From assembly GCF_000002985.6 (NCBI RefSeq), contig NC_003283.11:8556001-8620000 (forward strand): 64,000 bases of DNA. Direction: 5' to 3'. Every line of letters starts with the position of its first letter. Position 1 is the stretch's first letter. A program made the position numbers and the translations under genes. Positions 14,311-25,221 of the stretch are shown here, piece by piece. Under the pieces are notes generated by a model. It was not told the DNA's origin, searched no databases, and saw only the letters and a program-made list of their open reading frames with translations. This stretch comes from Caenorhabditis elegans (Eukaryota > Nematoda > Chromadorea > Rhabditida > Rhabditidae).

Positions 14311-17300
14311 ATGGACTACATCCAGGGATTGAACGAGGAGAATGAAACGGCGAGTGAACGAATTGGAGAGGCTTTAAAAGAAGCTCGAGATGCGGAGACT
14401 ATCGAAAAGAAACTTCTTTCTCTTTCTACAGTAAGTTTTTACAAATGGTTTTCTACCAAAATTTTAATTACTTTTTGTTGTGTTTTTGGAAATAAAAAGA
14501 ACAGTTTTTCAAAGAACTAAAACAAAAATCTACCGGGAAATGACTAGTCGATATTCAATTATTTAATTACAGGCAATGCATCTGCTCATCGACCCGAGTC
14601 TCTCAATCAGTATTCTCGACAATTTTCTAACCGAAATGCTGGAATTCGCAGAGCTGAACGACTCAAGGATTCTATGCCTTCTCGTCGATTTTCTTCTCAA
14701 AGCAAGCGCTAAAGACTTCACGTTATGTAACAAAACTGTCGAAAGATATAGTTTTTATCTTATTCCCAATAAGTCTATTAAACGATATGAAAGTGTTATA
14801 AAACGAGTTGTCGTTGCATCAACAAACTTATATCCGATCGTTCTTGAATTCGCAATCATGGATAAAAATGACAACGCGGAGAGCTGCTGGGATGCTTTTA
14901 ATTTGCTCAAGAATCGAATTTGTATGCTGGTTAGCGATGATCACGAAGGAGTCCGAACTGTTACCGTAAAGTTTCTGGAAGCTCTTATTTTGTGTCAATC
15001 TCCAAAGCCAAGAGAGTTGGCCACTGGTAGCAACATAAGCTGGGCAAGAGAGGCAAATACTAGATTCAATAGGATTTCTCTATCAGATGTTCCACGAAGT
15101 CATAGATTCCTATCCTATCATAAAACCCAGTTGGAAGCCGAGGAGAATTTCAGTGCTTTACTAAAGCAAACAACAGTCGCGGAAGCAACATCACAAAATC
15201 TTATAACAGTAATTGAATCACTCTGTATGATTACTCGTTGTCGACCTCAATGGGAGAATGCGTTGCCACGTGTCTTCGATGTTATAAAAGCTCTTCATTC
15301 AAATGTACCACCAATGCTCAGCAAGGGACAAGTCAAATTTCTGAGAAAATCATTCAAATATAATTTGCTACGTTTTTTGAAATTGCCTGCATCTGTTCCT
15401 CTCCAGCAAAAGATCACCACAATGTTAACAAACTATCTGGGAGCTTCACCCAGAGAAGTACAACAGTCGATTCCACCTGAACTGATTCAAAAAATAGCAC
15501 CGCCACGGCCACCACAGCATCCTGCAGAACCAGTTGCCAAACGTCCCAAGATTCAAAATCAAATATTCGAAGATGATGATGATGACGATGACGAAGCAGG
15601 ACCATCCACTAGCACTGTAAATGCAAAGGATGCGAGAACTGAAGCCATCGATATGACAGCCAAATTTATTATGGAATGCCTGAATCATGAAACTGTCATG
15701 AATCTTGTCAAGATCTCACTCTACACTCTACCGTCAGAAATGCCAGCTGCATTCGCATCATCATACACACCAATAGCAAACGCTGGAACAGAACCGAATC
15801 GTCAAGAATTATCAGAACTAATGGCTGTTCAAATGACGAACAAAGAAATTGGACCGGGATATGAGTGGTTGCAGCAACAAAGGAAAAAAGAATATGAAGC
15901 AAGGAATAAGGCAAGAAGTGAAGGAATGGCAATCGCCCAAACACCAATCCACGAACCGAATATGAGCAATCGCGTTCCAGCCCAGATTGTCAAACAGTCA
16001 CTTCAAGAAATTAACACTCTTCCGGTCATTCAAAAAGCGAAAAAGGCGTTCAACTTGGTAGAAGAAGCCGTTGTATTTGACGATAAAGAAGCTGCGGAGA
16101 TGTTTGAATTAGCTTATGAATCAGTTCTTCAAGCAGAACGGCGAGTTGTTGCTGGTGGAGCAAGGTTGATGTATCAGAAATTAGTTGTCCGGCTGACGAC
16201 TAGATTCTGGGAAGATTGTACTCCATTTGAAGAAAAGTTGATAGAATTCGTTTTGGCTGATCATAAAAAGAGAAATGATTTGGCGCTTCTATGGCTCTGC
16301 GAACTTTACGCACAATATCAAGGCTACTCGAACTGTGCTCTCTTCATGAAGGAAATGATCGCTGGACAAGAAGGACTTACCCAAGCACAAAGATTGGATC
16401 GATATGATCAAGCAATGTGCAAGATGCTTGACGCAATGTTGGAAAGAAATATGGAAAAAGAAGCTCTCTTTTATAAAGTTCTACTAGAAACACCACTTTT
16501 GACTCCGAATGCAATTGAAAGATTGAAGCAAGTGTGTTTGGCTAAAGAAAATGAGCATGGAATGGCGATGCTCCGTGAATTGATCATGACACGAAATCGA
16601 CAACGTCCGCAACTTTTGCAATTCCTTTTTGGCCTGTTTTTCATGGAAAGACCGGAACTTCGTAGTTCATGCCTAGAAGTTGTCAAGGAACTGTGTTATC
16701 TTCCATTTATCAGAAGCTCCTTGAGTGATCAGGCTAGAATGCAAATTCATGATTGTCTACAAGAAAGTCCTCCAATGTACATGCGAAGTTCTGAGGATTC
16801 TGATCAATGGACTGATGAAATGTACAAGAACTCGTTGGCTGTATACTCTACTCTGATGCCATCTGACCCATTACTTCTGATCCCGTTAGCTTCAGTCTAC
16901 GCACAATCTACCAATGTCTTCAAGCGAGTTGTACTCCGCTCATTGGAACCTGTATTCCGTCAATTGAGTCAAGAAATGGTAATATCATTAATAGAAGATT
17001 GTCCATATGGTGCTGAAACTCTTGTTGCTCGTTTAGTCGTTCTTCTAACTGAAAGAATCACGCCGTCAACTGATTTAATTCAAAAACTGAAAATTCTTCA
17101 CGACGAACGAAAAATGGATATTCGTGCTCTTCTACCAATCATAGGAGGACTTGAACGAGAAGAAGTTGTCAGACTTATTCCAACATTCATTTTCCGTGCT
17201 GAATATCAAAAGTCAGTGAATGTCCTATTCCGAAAGTTATATACCGTCCGTGATCCACAAACCGGAAATCTCGTGTTCGATCCAATTGAAGTTATCAAAG

Positions 17301-20300
17301 AGTATCACAAGATTGAGCCCAAAAATGATAATGAAGCTGAATTACTTGTTAACAGTAAGTTATACCATTTTAAACAGTAACCTTAAAAAATCATTTTTCA
17401 GATCTCGAGTTCCTTTTCGATCCAGCATTGTTGAAGCCAGATACCGCATCCCAAGCTATCGAAGCTGTTTTCAAATGGGAAAATGTTCCATTTCTATTTC
17501 TACACTCTCTTTATACTCTTTTTCATAAGGTGAGTATTATTTTGTTTTCGTTTGGCTATATTTCCAGTAAATCAGTATATTTTTTTCTGGAAATACGAAA
17601 AATCAAAAAGAAAATGTTCAGAAAGGTGACTTTATAATTCAGTTTTTATAAAATTTCGTTTATGCTAATGAAAAAACAAAAAGAAAAAAATGACCAATAT
17701 TTTAACCTATTTTTTCTCGAGAAAATCGGAAAAAACGAAAAAAAAAATTTTAAAGTAATAATCGAAAAACAACACCCTTGATGAATTTTTCCTATTTTCA
17801 GTTCAAAACATTCGAATCGTTCGTCGCAAATCTGTTCTACAAAGTAACTGAAAAGAAGATGTATCAACAATCGGATCGATGGAAGCAGGCATTTTTCAAA
17901 TGTATCAAAGAATTGAAAACCAAAGCGTATCCAGCGGTTATCACATTTTTGAGTTTTGAAGAATACGAAGAGCTAAAGGAAGTTTTAGGAGATGGAATTG
18001 TCGCAGAATTCAAAATAATTTATTCAACACTTGCAACACAACAGCAGAAGAATATGGAGTAAGTTTTCATGAAAATTAGATAATTCTTAATTGTAATAAT
18101 TTCAGCGAGAAAATCAAAGAGGAGTTGCATGATAAAGAACGAGAAAATCGTGAACGAGATAAGCGACTTCGAAGAGAAGAGAAAAAGGAAAAGGAAAGAG
18201 AAAAGGAACGAACTCGCGAAAGTGGAAAGGAAAGAGTAAGTTGGCCTTTAAAAACTGAAACTCCTCTTTATTTTGTCAAATTTTAAATCTCTTAAAAAAT
18301 GTTAACCTTTATTAGATTTTTTTGCTTTACTATACTCAAGATGTGCCCAAATTTTGTAATGAAACGTCCTAAAAATTTCTCAAATTTTTTTTATTTCTAA
18401 AAAAGCTAATTTTAGCTAAAAACCTCCAATTTTGTCAATTTTTCTGTTTTGAAGCGGTCGAAAACGGTGCTGAATCCAAAGTTTTTCTTCGAAACCGAAA
18501 AAATCGAAAACACAAAAAATTTTGTAATTTTATTTTCAAAAAAGATTTAAGTTTTTGTTCAAAAGTGCACCCTAGTTGTATTTTGGAGTGTATTTTTTTG
18601 GAAAACGTATGAAGTTAAAAATTATGAGTTTTAAAGTTGAATTGTCGTTTTTTTTTTCTCGCATATTTTTCGAAAAAAAAACGAAAATCAAATTTGTCGC
18701 AAAAAAACACAAAAAAAAAGGCAAATGCTCTTTTACTACCTCATCTTTTACTACGTTGCTCTTTTACTACGGTTTACTCTTTTACTACGGCCGTATTTTT
18801 TACTACGTTTTCCAATTTCGATCTTTTGCTACAATTTGTATCTTTTACTACGGCCGTATTTTTTACTACGTTTTCCAATTTCGATCTTTTACTACAATTT
18901 GTATCTTTTACTACGGCCGTATTTTTTACTACGTTTTCCAATTTCGATCTTTTACTACAATTTGTATCTTTTACTACGGCCGTATTTTTTACTACGTTTT
19001 CCAATTTCGATCTTTTACTACAATTTGTATCTTTTACTACGGCCGTATTTTTTACTACGTTTTCCAATTTCGATCTTTTACTACAATTTGTATCTTTTAC
19101 TACGGCCGTATTTTTTACTACGTTTTCCAATTTCGATCTTTTGCTACAATTTGTATCTTTTACTACGGTAACTTTTTTTACTACGTTTTCCAATTTCGAT
19201 CTTTTGCTACAGTTTGTATCTTTTACTACGATTAACGATTTTTTACGGCCTAATGAAAAAAAAAGAATATCAAAAGTTGGAATTTGAAAGTTACCTTGTA
19301 GCAGATTTCAGGTATAATTACAATTTCATTCTGAAGTCAACATGAAAGTTTCATAGCGGTGTTCTTTTCCAACTTTTGATATATACTACTGTCTGAGCGG
19401 TTTTTAACTGAATTCGACGAGATCATAAGGGGAAATTAAACTTTATGAAAAAAGCAAAAATTTGTTCGAAATTTTGTTTAATTTTCTGAAAAAAAAGTAT
19501 GGTCCCTACAACCAAGAAACTAATTACTCTACATTAGTCTAGAATATATCGTCAATCAGAGCACGCGCTCTGGGTGCGAACAGCTGGTTAAAAAATAAAA
19601 AGTCGTATTGGGTTTTTGTGAGTTGACTACTACACTACTCGTTTATCCACTGCGCCACACTGGCCCAGCTTGCTGAACCGGAGTGAGGTGGGGTGACTTT
19701 GAGACACGCCAATGACATCAGAAATGGTAGATTCGAAGATGCTTATTCTGGCATCAACTTTAGAACCGCGTAAGAATACTGAAACATGTTGTATTCCTAC
19801 TTACCTAAATCTATTCATAAATACAATTCACTATATTGCCGATGAAAATTTCAAACAGTCTTTAATTACTGAAGAACCCACTTATTTCATCAACACATCA
19901 AATGATTTTCAATTTTCGTAAAGAATATTGATATTTTCTCATCCATGTACCATTGCTTCAAACATAGATGACTTTTTTCCTCATCAAGTTTTGCAAATTC
20001 TTATTATCACTCGATCTTTTACTACGCGGATCTTTTGCTACGGCGATCTTTTACTACGATTCGCTGCGAGACCCGTGCCTTGTGGAGTACACTCGGAGGC
20101 AATTTCTTCCTTTTATTTTCGAATTTCTTCATTTATTTCCAGAATTTGTGATTTTTTTTGCCTAAAATAAATCTCTGATAAGGGAATGTTACACAAATGG
20201 CTCACTAGTGTCGACTGGGAGGAGATTATCGCCGAAAAAAGGTCAGTTGTTGTATAATTGTGCTGAAAAAATTTAGGATTTGAATCTTTTAAAGTTAATT

Positions 20301-23300
20301 TTTATTTGAATTACAGATTTACTGAAACTGACAGTGTCGATCCAGCTGTTCTTCACAACTTGTTGAATCAAAACAAGCTGATTGTGCGAATTCCATTAGA
20401 AGAAAATGGAGGATTTCCATTTGATGGCCATGTCTGGTCAAAGTGTGATCCGAAGAATCGAATCAAGCATACTGCTCGTTACGAAAAAGTTACCGTTTTC
20501 GGTGTCACTGTTAACAGCAGACAATGTATTGACTTTGATAATCGAAACTTCTCTAGACACGTAAGGAAGTTTAAACTGACTACATAACCTAAGTTTTCAT
20601 GCTTTCAGGTACTTCCTTTTAACGATTTCGTGTTTATTTATTATTGCATTCAAGACAACAGCTACCAGTTGCCTGTTGACAATGGAAAGAAAAAGAGACT
20701 AACAGGTATGAATAAAAAGAAAAAAGAAAAATAATCACTAAAATGTGCTCCAGCTAAGGAATGTGAGATACTTCGAACAATGGTGATCCCTCATCGTAAT
20801 ATCCACGGAGCAATGGAGGCAGCCAAAGCACTTGGAATCAATGTCACAGTGAGACAGGTTAGATTACTTTCATGAAAAATAAAAATAAATGTATTTTCCA
20901 GTTGCAAAACTTAAGCCGTGGCGTTCCGGATGCAATCATCGGAAATTCTGGCTCCAACGCCGCCACTACATTGGAAACAATTAAAGAACTGGAACGTCTG
21001 TATGGAACTAGAATGAATCATGCAGTTGGTGAGTGGAATTCGTATAACAATTTTGAAAAAAAAAAACAATTTCCAGATTCATACGGAGTTCTCGATGTTA
21101 CATTCTTCCAATCATTTCCAGAGGCAATTAAAATCTTTTTATGTAGTTGTCCAGATATGAATGTTGTACAAGACTGGAGGAGAAACGTCGAAAATATATG
21201 CGAAATGGACGGTGAAATGAGAAAGCGACAACTAAAGGATCTTCTTAAAACAACCCCAGACGGAGTGTTTTTCTATTCCCGCCTTCATATTGATACGACG
21301 TATAACCTTGGTGACGCATACGTCACTGTTATTCTTGGAGAAACTATGAACTTTGTGTGGGTTTTATAATATTTAAAGCGTGTCTATATTTTTGCTGTAG
21401 GACTACCAGCTCCGACAAATGCCGAGTACTGCCATTGGGATACATGGTTCACACAAACCGATTAGCTGCAACTCACGAAAAGTTTGCTGATTTTCTTTCA
21501 GAAGAATTTGCCAAAGTTGGCGGCGTTCCGAATGGTAAAATGATTCCATGTTTGCTGATGGATGGTGAATCAAGTTTGGGAGAGTATGGAAAAGTGAGTT
21601 GACTTGATTTTGATTGAAAAAACAATACGCATTATAAATTTCAGACGCTCGACGTGATGACCATTCGATGTGACTATCACATCTTTTCTTTGATGAGCCA
21701 TAAATATGGAAAACCTGTCGCCACCAAATCAAAACCTTATGTTTTTGGAACTATGGTAATTTTTCCATGGAGTTTTCATATAAAAGTATCGTAATTTCAG
21801 GAAAACGAAAAGTGGAAGACTGGACTTCTAGGTGTATTCACTGAAGATGAGTATTCTGAACGCTTCGAAGTGATGGAAAAAATTGTGGACACGAATGTTG
21901 CTCAATGGTAATACAATTTTCTGGAAAGTTTATGAAACATACTAATTAGTGAGGCAATACGTTTTTGTTTTTAGAGATACGTTTATAGATAAAAACATGG
22001 CATAGTGATTTGTCCGCTTTATCATGTTTTACCGGAATGTTTGTGTTTTAGGTTTCATCGGAAAAGGAAGATGTTCTTTGAATGTGCATCGGCAATGGCC
22101 AAGCTTCTTGGTGGACACCTAAGGCAATTTTCTACCAATAACATTTCGGAGAATTTCAATGGATACGTTAAGTGCAAACTACACAAACAAATGACCATTG
22201 ACAAGTTAATCCTGAAACTCAACGAACACTGTGAAGGTAGGAAAAATAGGAAAAAGTACAAATAAAGTTAATATTTTTCAGATGTTATTGTTCAATGCTT
22301 CTTAAGCACGATCGGTCAGTCTGCACGGGTCTCATTGAAAGAGGATCTCAGCGAGTTATCGGTTGAGCAGAGACTTCAATTCTTGAAAAATATTGGAGTC
22401 ACTGGAGAACTTCTTTCCGCTTTGAACACACATCCCGATCCAGCTGTTATCAGGTCTTACGAATTAAAAAAAATCCAATCTTAACTAATGCCCATTTATA
22501 GAAATTGAAGCCGAAAAAAGTCGCCACGAAGCTGATGCAGCCGCTAATGTGGTAATCTACCAAAGAAACGATGAAATCTTCAACTTGAGAGATGACTCTA
22601 TAAACTGTTCATCCAGGTACCCAAAAAATTAGACAAAATGTTTCTCAGGACTAGTAAAATACATTCTTTTCAGGCACGCTTCTGTCGAATATGACCAGGG
22701 ACTCCTAAAATGCTCCAAATGCAATACGGTCAAATTGGAATACACTTGCAGGCATTTGTAAGTAACGCCACCAGGAAATAGCTCGTTTCAAAAAAAACGT
22801 TTCAGTTTGCACTGCCTTTTAAAACTGCGTGACACAGATCGGGTTGTCCAATGGCATAAGATGTTGTCTAAGATCAAGAAACAGCGAATCGATTCAGTGA
22901 AACAGCCTCTCATCGATCCGAAAAGTGGTCACAAATTATCTGATAGAATCGGATGTGGCCAATCATCAAATAATCGTAAAAGAAAAGTTGCTGAATTATC
23001 AACGTAAGTTTGCCAATAATCAAATAACCAGTAAACATTACCATTGTAGCCTTACGGTCTACAAGAGCAATACCAACTCCGATGACGAAACAGGAACCGC
23101 AAATAGTAGAGAAAATCTAGATCAATCACTTCCGGATGCATCGATGAGTGACAATTTTTCGCCTATCTTCTCGTCTACGATGATCAATGGAAGCAGACGA
23201 TCAAGCAGATCGCGGTACATTGACGAAACAGTGTTCAAGTTATTATCATTTTTTCAGTAACAGCACCAAAGTCATGGATCCATCACCATCTGATACAAAC

Positions 23301-25221
23301 GAGTCTTCTCTCTACGATGATCAATTCTCGTCTACGATGATCAATGGAAGCAGACGATCAAGCAGATCACGGTACATTGACGAAACAGTGTTCAAGTTAA
23401 TATCATTTTTTCAGTAACAGCACCAAAGTCATGGATCCATCACCATCTGATACAAACGAGTCTGACGAAACCAGTGGAAATTGTGATGTGTTCGTTAATC
23501 GCACACGTCTTCTGTTTGACGATGATGGGGACGATTCAACGGTCACTCTCTTCAACAGCACAGAGAAAACTCTTCAATTCAAATGTAGAATTGATTCTGA
23601 TGAGTACTCTATGAAGCCGACTCGCGGAAGTATTAAGCCAAATATGGATAAGACGATGAGAGTTCGAGTAGGTGATACTGCTCCTGGCACTACCACTATG
23701 CACATTTTCTACACAGTGAAAGATGAGGAAGAAAAGTCATTCAAAATTCTTCTGAAATACGATCCTTGAAAACCTCATTTTCATTGAAATTTCAACTGTA
23801 ATATCCTAATTTGTTCTTCTTCTTTGTTGTTCTGTTGATTTTTTTAAATGTTGTATCCCTTTTTAGTATAATCTTGAAAGTTCCATGAAGTTGTTGTTGT
23901 TATTGTTACATCGATATTGATTCTACATTATTATTTAAAAGCCATTCCGAACACTTTTCGGAAAATTCTTTGATTAGTGAAAAAAAATCAGTAATAAAAA
24001 AATACTTTACTAAATTGGGCGAATTATCTTACTACATACTGTTTCAGTGACTGTTCACTTCTAAAATTCTAGTAAAATTCACATTAAATGGTGAAAGAAA
24101 ATTGAAAACGTTTTTGAAAGTTTTCAAAACAAAATTTCGAACAAATTTTTGTTTTTTTCATAAAGTTTAATTTCCCTTTATGATCTCGTCGGATTCAGTT
24201 AAAAACCGCTCAGACAGTAGTATATATCAAAAGTTGGAAAAGAACACCGCTATGAAACTTTCATGTTGACTTCAGAATGAAATTGTAATTATACCTGAAA
24301 TCTGCTACAAGGTAACTTTCAAATTCCAACTTTTGCATTTGCCCAAAAAAGCATTTGCCCAAAAAAAACCATAGCCCTGGTCGGATATTATCTAATTTCT
24401 GACGGCTGTGACACGGAAAAGTTGGCAAAATTTGAGATTATTGCTAAAATTACCCTTTTTCAAAATTTTGAATCGGCATAAAAATTGAAATTTTAAAAAG
24501 TGAAATTTTGGTAAGCTTCATTACAAAAGTTCTCCGTTTGGGCGCATTTTACTACTGTATGCGAACTCCTGCAACGACTGGCATTTACATTTTCATTGTG
24601 TTCATGCATATGCGCAGCGTTGTAGGGATCCGCTGGTGAGTAGTACAGCGTTAAATATCAGAAGTACTACTAGTAGCTGTGAAATACTAAGGGAGGTGCC
24701 ACCAGTTCATTCATTGAGTCAGAGAGCCGGCGAGTCCTTTTTCTAATAGACGGGCTCCGTCATCATGAGCCCCATAAATCGTTGGCGCCCCATTGACGAC
24801 GAAGAACGGCCAGCTGCTGCCAAGTAGGGTGAGCTGTTGGTTGGTAGGGAATAGAACAACGAATTCGCTGAACGGATTGAGACCTTGACAGGGATACCAA
24901 TTGTCGAGAAAGCTTTGTAAGTTTGACAGTTGGAATGCCTGGCCAGGTCGCCAGCCGTCGCGAGTTTGAATTGATAGAATGATTGGGAGAAAGGTGAAGA
25001 GCCGGCGCCTCCATTGACCAAATATGTAAAGTGTGGGAGAGTGAAGACAATGGAATGAATGGAAATTGTACAATAAAATTGGCAGTTACATTCCTTTGTG
25101 CGCATTTAATGTATTTCACATCTTTTTGGGTTACTGTAGTTGCTCTTTGGTTTGGTTTTTTATGTTGAAAATTTGAAAACTACATTACTAAATAATTTTT
25201 TTTCAGAGTTCCCGACGATAA
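14311..25221 (+). CDS. symk-1: Symplekin, mRNA 3'-end processing scaffold
   Basis: Scaffold of the cleavage and polyadenylation machinery and of histone pre-mRNA processing (family knowledge). Six exons: 14311-14430, 14573-17354, 17402-17529, 17802-18058, 18106-18235, 25207-25221, giving 1,143 residues. The N-terminal half is HEAT-repeat-like (LILCQSPKPRELATG, FLKLPASVPLQQKITTMLTN). It is followed by an acidic linker with a run of aspartates (IFEDDDDDDDEAGPSTST) and a preceding PPRPPQHPAEPVAKRPK stretch, then the symplekin C-terminal domain. The tail is a charged KE/RE-rich helix. The last exon adds only SSRR before the stop. Without it, reading through the donor at 18236 would give a short alternative tail. 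The final intron is about 7 kb because it holds a MULE transposon, a satellite and further repeats; all other introns are short. Confidence 0.92.
18770..19232. repeat. 63-bp tandem satellite, about seven copies
   Basis: The unit is 63 bp long and recurs at 18790, 18853, 18916 and so on to about 19,230. Each unit contains three spaced copies of a TTTTACTACG-like word (with CGGCCGTATTT in most units). The last unit or two are degenerate. Because 63 is divisible by three, the array is open in several frames on both strands, which produces spurious repetitive reading frames. The same word occurs again at 20,010-20,060 inside the transposon, so the array looks like an amplified subterminal repeat of the MULE and not host satellite. 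Confidence 0.95.
19271..19479 (+). repeat. MULE left terminal inverted repeat
   Basis: A 209-bp segment starting CAAAAGTTGGAATTTGAAAG. Its reverse complement occurs at 24127-24335 with three substitutions that I can see. The word CCAACTTTTGATATAT occurs again inside the repeat in inverted orientation, so each repeat could fold on itself. Confidence 0.95.
19550..19673 (-). repeat. tRNA-like segment (A box and B box), SINE-like
   Basis: On the minus strand the sequence reads TGGCGCAGTGGATAA (19656-19642), an excellent RNA polymerase III A box of the tRNA type. About 60 bases further on it reads GTTCGCACCC (about 19582-19571), a recognisable B box. A normal tRNA cloverleaf with acceptor stem does not form by eye, and the box spacing is longer than usual for an intronless tRNA gene. 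It is best described as a tRNA-derived SINE fragment or tRNA pseudogene captured inside the MULE; transcription is not implied. Confidence 0.5.
20186..23769 (+). CDS. MULE transposase fused to a C-terminal MSP domain
   Basis: A 17-exon model gives 895 residues: 20186-20241, 20317-20560, 20609-20705, 20754-20857, 20902-21028, 21077-21356, 21401-21593, 21645-21755, 21801-21907, 22052-22236, 22282-22453, 22521-22616, 22674-22757, 22806-23003, 23050-23214, 23258-23371, 23415-23769. The middle holds a Mutator-type transposase with candidate catalytic D282 (HIDTTYNLGDAYVTVIL), D357 (LLMDGESSLG) and E473 (NNISENFNGY), and a CDYHIFSLM motif. A SWIM-type zinc finger follows (CSKCNTVKLEYTCRHFLHC). The last about 100 residues match the major sperm protein fold (VTLFNSTEKTLQFKCRIDSD, YSMKPTRGSIKPNMDKTMRV). 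The frame holds only if exon 12 uses a poor acceptor (AAAAAAG at 22520); the better TTTATAG at 22501 would cause a one-base frameshift. The linker contains a tandem duplication. Confidence 0.78.
23170..23459 (+). repeat. Tandem duplication spanning exon and intron in transposase linker
   Basis: A segment of about 130 bp beginning TCTCGTCTACGATGATCAAT occurs at about 23,170 and again about 158 bp later at about 23,328. Each copy contains the end of an exon (RRSSRSR), a complete 43-nt intron starting GTACATTG and ending TTTTTTCAG, and the start of the next exon (NSTKVMDPSPSDTNES). The copies differ by only a few bases. The duplication therefore created a new exon with its own intron. Confidence 0.85.
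23770..25206. other. Right part of symk-1 last intron
   Basis: Holds the 3' region of the transposon gene, the right inverted repeat, and after 24,360 a stretch of unknown origin. The part at 24,700-25,100 is richer in G+C than the surroundings and open in all three minus-strand frames for about 120 codons. No family was recognised and there is no splice-site pattern supporting a gene, so it may be a fragment of an older element or an unrecognised exon. Confidence 0.5.
24127..24335 (-). repeat. MULE right terminal inverted repeat
   Basis: Reverse complement of the left repeat at 19271-19479 with three visible substitutions. It is followed directly by two tandem copies of GCATTTGCCCAAAAAA (24335-24366), the second of which appears to mark the outer element end. 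Confidence 0.95.

Follow-up and report, generated by a model that had tools for sequence, protein, structure and literature searches.

Does this locus encode a transposase that ends in a domain of the nematode sperm-protein kind? A sequence-only reading had proposed this, joining a MULE transposase and a SWIM finger to a C-terminal major sperm protein (MSP) fold within one transposon. The proposal was followed up in the window, by which we mean the whole stretch of 64,000 nucleotides that was analysed (C5:8556001-8620000, in a genome of 100,286,401 bases on 7 contigs). Read from its sequence, the locus has about an even chance of being what we propose here, namely a MULE-like transposase with a C-terminal contact domain of the MSP/ASH type, encoded by one spliced gene in a DNA transposon.

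The gene model on which this reading is built comprises the following parts:

20186..23769, plus strand: 17-exon gene, 895 amino acids, one stop at the end
20186-20241, 20317-20560, 20609-20705, 20754-20857, 20902-21028, 21077-21356, plus strand: exons 1 to 6
21401-21593, 21645-21755, 21801-21907, 22052-22236, 22282-22453, 22521-22616, plus strand: exons 7 to 12
22674-22757, 22806-23003, 23050-23214, 23258-23371, 23415-23769, plus strand: exons 13 to 17
23168..23463, plus strand: 157-bp tandem duplication, 1.9 copies, which yielded exon 16 (38 codons)

All 16 introns show GT-AG borders, 15 of them being 43-75 nt long and one 144 nt. When GT or GC donors and AG acceptors were enumerated, 31 splice choices stayed in frame, and the longest product, with 895 residues, was the model of the sequence-only reading. 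Codon usage was then scored with the neighbouring symplekin ORF (14570-17377) as training set, exon 12 being scored from 22502 in the same frame. The assigned frame ranked top of three in 17 of 17 exons, with slightly negative scores in 5 of them, a result that partly restates openness, because unseen stop codons depress the other frames. In the case of exon 17, mononucleotide shuffles were open in any of the three frames in 8 of 5000 cases. The continuous 17-exon frame claimed beforehand is thus borne out by its 895 residues, by 16 of 16 GT-AG introns and by the codon ranking.

Two details of the model deserve description. The 157-bp duplication took in the last part of exon 15, the intron and the first part of the final exon. 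Exon 16 is its product, the reading frame was preserved, and 2 of 139 positions differ between the copies. In intron 11 (22454-22520), the in-frame acceptor reads AAAAAAG before TCG, lacks a pyrimidine tract and lets exon 12 start at 22521. This weak acceptor is required, as the stronger-looking TTTATAG that precedes 22502 does not maintain the frame; an exon 12 starting at 22502 was therefore rejected. Skipping exon 12 altogether (22453 joined to 22674) keeps the frame and gives 863 residues.

Around the gene, the following features of the element were located:

19271..19479, plus strand: left inverted arm, 209 nt
24127..24335, minus strand: right inverted arm, 209 nt
18720..24359, no strand: candidate full extent of the element, with ends GGCAAATGC and GCATTTGCC
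18760..19230, plus strand: tandem array of a 63-bp unit in 7.5 copies, outside the left arm

With 3 differences in 209 positions, the two arms point to a fairly recent insertion. Long terminal inverted repeats are expected of a MULE and are seen here as the 209-nt arms, which we regard as candidates for the true ends. Further outwards, GGCAAATGC (from 18720) and GCATTTGCC (up to 24359) form an inverted match in 13 of 14 positions. The flanks of these candidate ends, AAAAAAAAA and CAAAAAAAA, agree in 8 of 9 positions, which is weak as a target duplication because the stretch is a homopolymer; no non-homopolymer target duplication of 8-10 bp, the length expected of a MULE, was found with at most one mismatch allowed. 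Both inverted arms flank the gene together with its last exon, and the tail therefore lies inside the element and does not belong to a flanking host gene. The earlier statement that the frame sits within one transposon is upheld, the arms lying outside 20186-23769.

Several repeats accompany these ends. The 63-bp array is built on TCTTTTACTACG, and a short related stretch lies at 20012-20058, upstream of exon 1. Folded as RNA, the array surpasses all of 100 shuffled versions (z -4.35). Bordering the right arm on its outer side, at 24335-24366, GCATTTGCCCAAAAAA stands twice in tandem.

Regarding the enzymatic part, two regions could be delimited by motifs:

21077..22236, plus strand: presumed DDE core, exons 6-10, with D282, D357, C376xxH379 and E473
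22674..23003, plus strand: zinc-like motif C604xxC607...C616xH618 with basic KRKV at 677, exons 13-14

The core motifs were read by eye from a single sequence and consist of HIDTTYN with D282, LLMDGES with D357, CDYH at 376-379 and SENFN with E473. The core of MULE transposases is D-D-E with a CxxH between the second D and the E, and we take the order D282/D357/CxxH/E473 to be the same arrangement. In Pfam, exons 1-11 gave no family at E <= 10, the MULE profile included. When four fragments were searched, nothing was obtained for the two core fragments (E <= 10), and each non-core fragment gave a single weak match to an unrelated family (E 0.084 and 0.019). In NCBIfam, a family described as ICE transposase-like matched the core weakly, at 16 bits (E 0.0055) where the cut-off is 162. 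The SWIM pattern is CxCx(n)CxH; here CxxC stands in place of CxC, and no Pfam SWIM match was seen. The MULE and SWIM assignments made beforehand are therefore only partly retained: the motifs can be read, but CxxC departs from SWIM and Pfam recognises neither domain.

The tail is the part on which the question turns, and its match to the MSP family was located as follows:

23503..23670, plus strand: MSP-profile match in exon 17 (exon residues 30-85)

Exon 17 alone (117 residues) scored 24.6 bits against PF00635 (MSP; E 2.5e-5, profile positions 8-68 of 109), which does not reach the curated cut-off of 25.9 bits. The profile PF24507 (Ig_CFAP65_4th) equals MSP on this exon with 24.9 bits (E 2.6e-5, cut-off 27), and Cep192_D6 follows with 22.3 bits (E 1.5e-4). 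With exons 12-17 taken together, CFAP65 (5.3e-5) ranks over MSP (2.2e-4) in Pfam. A genome scan with PF00635 at E <= 0.001 returned 125 matches, exon 17 not being among them; at 24.6 bits it would just miss such a scan, because the weakest match there had 25.4 bits (E 8.7e-4).

Worm MSP profiles were also used, made from six worm MSP-family loci; two further loci in the set repeat L006 and were left out. Exon 17 scored 17.6 bits against 8.5 for the best of 2000 shuffles and stood above 2000 of 2000 shuffles in five of five profiles, a similarity above chance in a test that does not distinguish between MSP and further beta-sandwich families. The hhalign comparison of the tail gave P 0.008 and a probability of 4.9%. 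Identity to six worm MSP-family sequences was 13-18%, with the P-x-x-G columns kept. MSP domains form an Ig-like sandwich of seven strands; a single-sequence AlphaFold2 model of the tail was all-beta and of low confidence (mean pLDDT 63.0, pTM 0.50). Searched with this model, Foldseek gave nothing at E <= 0.001 and no MSP or VAP protein among the 50 matches listed, and VIA-align likewise none among its 50 matches listed.

Altogether, the tail is best described as Ig-like and of MSP/ASH type, with MSP itself somewhat more probable than not. The proposed MSP fold can thus be kept as MSP-like, with scores above those of shuffles, but it stays under the Pfam cut-off and is tied by CFAP65. The fusion as a whole fares similarly: within a single element, a transposase-like frame does continue into a domain resembling MSP, but the names MULE, SWIM and MSP are softer than had been claimed. 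Neither capture of the domain from a sperm gene nor direction of the transposase to germline structures, both suggested beforehand, follows from a match that lies under the Pfam cut-off and that other Ig-like families of the MSP/ASH type equal more or less.

Taken as a whole, the interpretation as a MULE-like transposase with an MSP/ASH-type tail is favoured by the frame, the inverted arms, the MSP shuffle results and the P-x-x-G columns, as well as by the all-beta model, the DDE/CxxH order and the weak NCBIfam match. It is weakened by the MSP score under the cut-off, the CFAP65 tie, the absence from the PF00635 scan, the hhalign probability, the 13-18% identity and fold searches without MSP or VAP. 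Further points that weaken it are the lack of Pfam MULE and SWIM matches, of a clear target duplication and of a strong exon-12 acceptor.

The same observations can be arranged differently. The tail could be an Ig-like sandwich of another lineage, either of ASH, CFAP65 or Cep192 type or an old part of the transposase family, that only resembles MSP and involves no capture from the sperm family. The CFAP65 and Cep192_D6 scores beside that of MSP, the first rank of CFAP65 on exons 12-17, the low hhalign probability and a shuffle test blind to MSP versus other beta sandwiches all speak for this; against it, the tail scores above every shuffle with all five worm MSP profiles and keeps the MSP P-x-x-G columns, and we consider this lineage rather unlikely. 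A comparably doubtful alternative concerns the state of the copy, which might be a decaying relic with a near-intact frame, a damaged exon-12 splice site and a tail that is not produced any more. The better-looking acceptor out of frame beside the in-frame AAAAAAG, the tandem duplication in the linker and the 63-bp array present at one end only would fit such decay. However, 895 codons are free of stops with the top codon frame in all 17 exons, the arms are nearly identical, and the junctions 22453/22521 and 22453/22674 are both in frame.

It is also conceivable, but improbable, that two products are made, a transposase that stops short of exon 17 and a separate MSP-like protein that starts at the ATG of exon 17 (MDPSPSD...). 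An in-frame ATG indeed lies near the start of exon 17, the exon has about the length of a single-MSP-domain protein, and some MULE groups possess two ORFs, as described in the available part of PMC6446971. On the other hand, exon 17 is preceded by an in-phase TTTTTTCAG acceptor, the frame continues through the duplicated exon 16, and the sequence runs from the zinc-like motif to the tail without a stop. Domestication, by which a former transposase would now serve as a host gene and be mobile no longer, draws on the single locus seen and on the kept DDE motifs, but the near-identical arms point to a fairly recent insertion, and this reading appears very improbable.

Returning to the MULE-like transposase with an MSP/ASH-type tail, the predicted protein would run from an unassigned N-terminal part through a DDE (RNase H-like) core, a zinc-finger-like CxxC...CxH and a basic stretch to a linker rich in serine and acidic residues, followed by the Ig-like tail. 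The DDE core would cut and join the ends of the element, and the zinc-like motif and basic stretch may serve DNA contact and nuclear entry. MSP-type domains act as contact modules, also outside sperm, as in VAP proteins, and commonly dimerise or bind short peptides. The tail was probably borrowed as a module for protein binding, which would provide contact either between transposases or as a tether to a host protein. Its source was probably a host MSP-family gene, taken up long ago, and its sequence has moved far from that origin.

Germline targeting by the tail is possible. A bolder version, in which a worm transposon lineage fused an MSP-family domain to its transposase that guides this enzyme, or assembles it, in sperm or germ cells and thereby ties the success of Mutator elements to the mating system, seems improbable to us. 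Mutator content is about twofold higher in outcrossing than in self-fertile Caenorhabditis, and Mutator is the one TE class there that was best modelled by mating system, according to the part of PMC10015627 available to us. If the tail proves common to the copies of the element, it would offer a testable case of a transposon that exploits a module of reproductive tissue.

Several known systems can be set beside this element. CEMUDR1 and CEMUDR2 are autonomous MuDR elements of C. elegans in Repbase (PMC2725143, in part). They share the host and, by description and not by sequence, the MULE-like plan with its long inverted arms, and the accounts of them at hand, including the available portion of PMC2725143, make no mention of an MSP domain. 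Silencing of CEMUDR1 is lost in hrde-1 or prg-1 worms (PMC7917558, in part). In root-knot nematodes, Tm1 is a MULE of the Phantom subclass with 496 aa, and it too has long, repeat-rich inverted ends; it carries FLYWCH and Pfam MULE domains, whereas the protein of the window shows neither in Pfam (PMC3169594, in part). Compared with nematode MSP/SSP and VAP proteins (PF00635), the tail shares the P-x-x-G columns and the all-beta pattern, but differs by its low identity, its score under the Pfam cut-off and its attachment to a transposase-like protein.

Extra domains are familiar in MULEs: OTU, SET, FAR1 and PMD are among those carried, as are inserts termed ‘potentially host derived’, and MULEs take up pieces of host genes (PMC6446971, in part). 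These elements likewise combine a transposase with a further domain or insert, and no MSP is mentioned in the portion of that source available; the words ‘sperm’, ‘caenorhabditis’ and ‘elegans’ are absent from its text. On the best reading, a transposase with an MSP/ASH tail is a further variant of this MULE habit. In the open-licence literature searched, to which the annotation of WormBase, Repbase and InterPro does not belong, an MSP domain together with a transposase was not found, and none of the titles and abstract openings listed dealt with such a fusion. The literature searched thus showed no animal MULE-like transposase that carries, in frame, a contact domain resembling nematode sperm protein.

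Finally, Rfam places mir-358 and mir-357 at 24562-24965 on the minus strand. The right end of the element lies about 200 bp from the start of this mir-357/mir-358 pair, and the insertion site is just downstream of mir-357.
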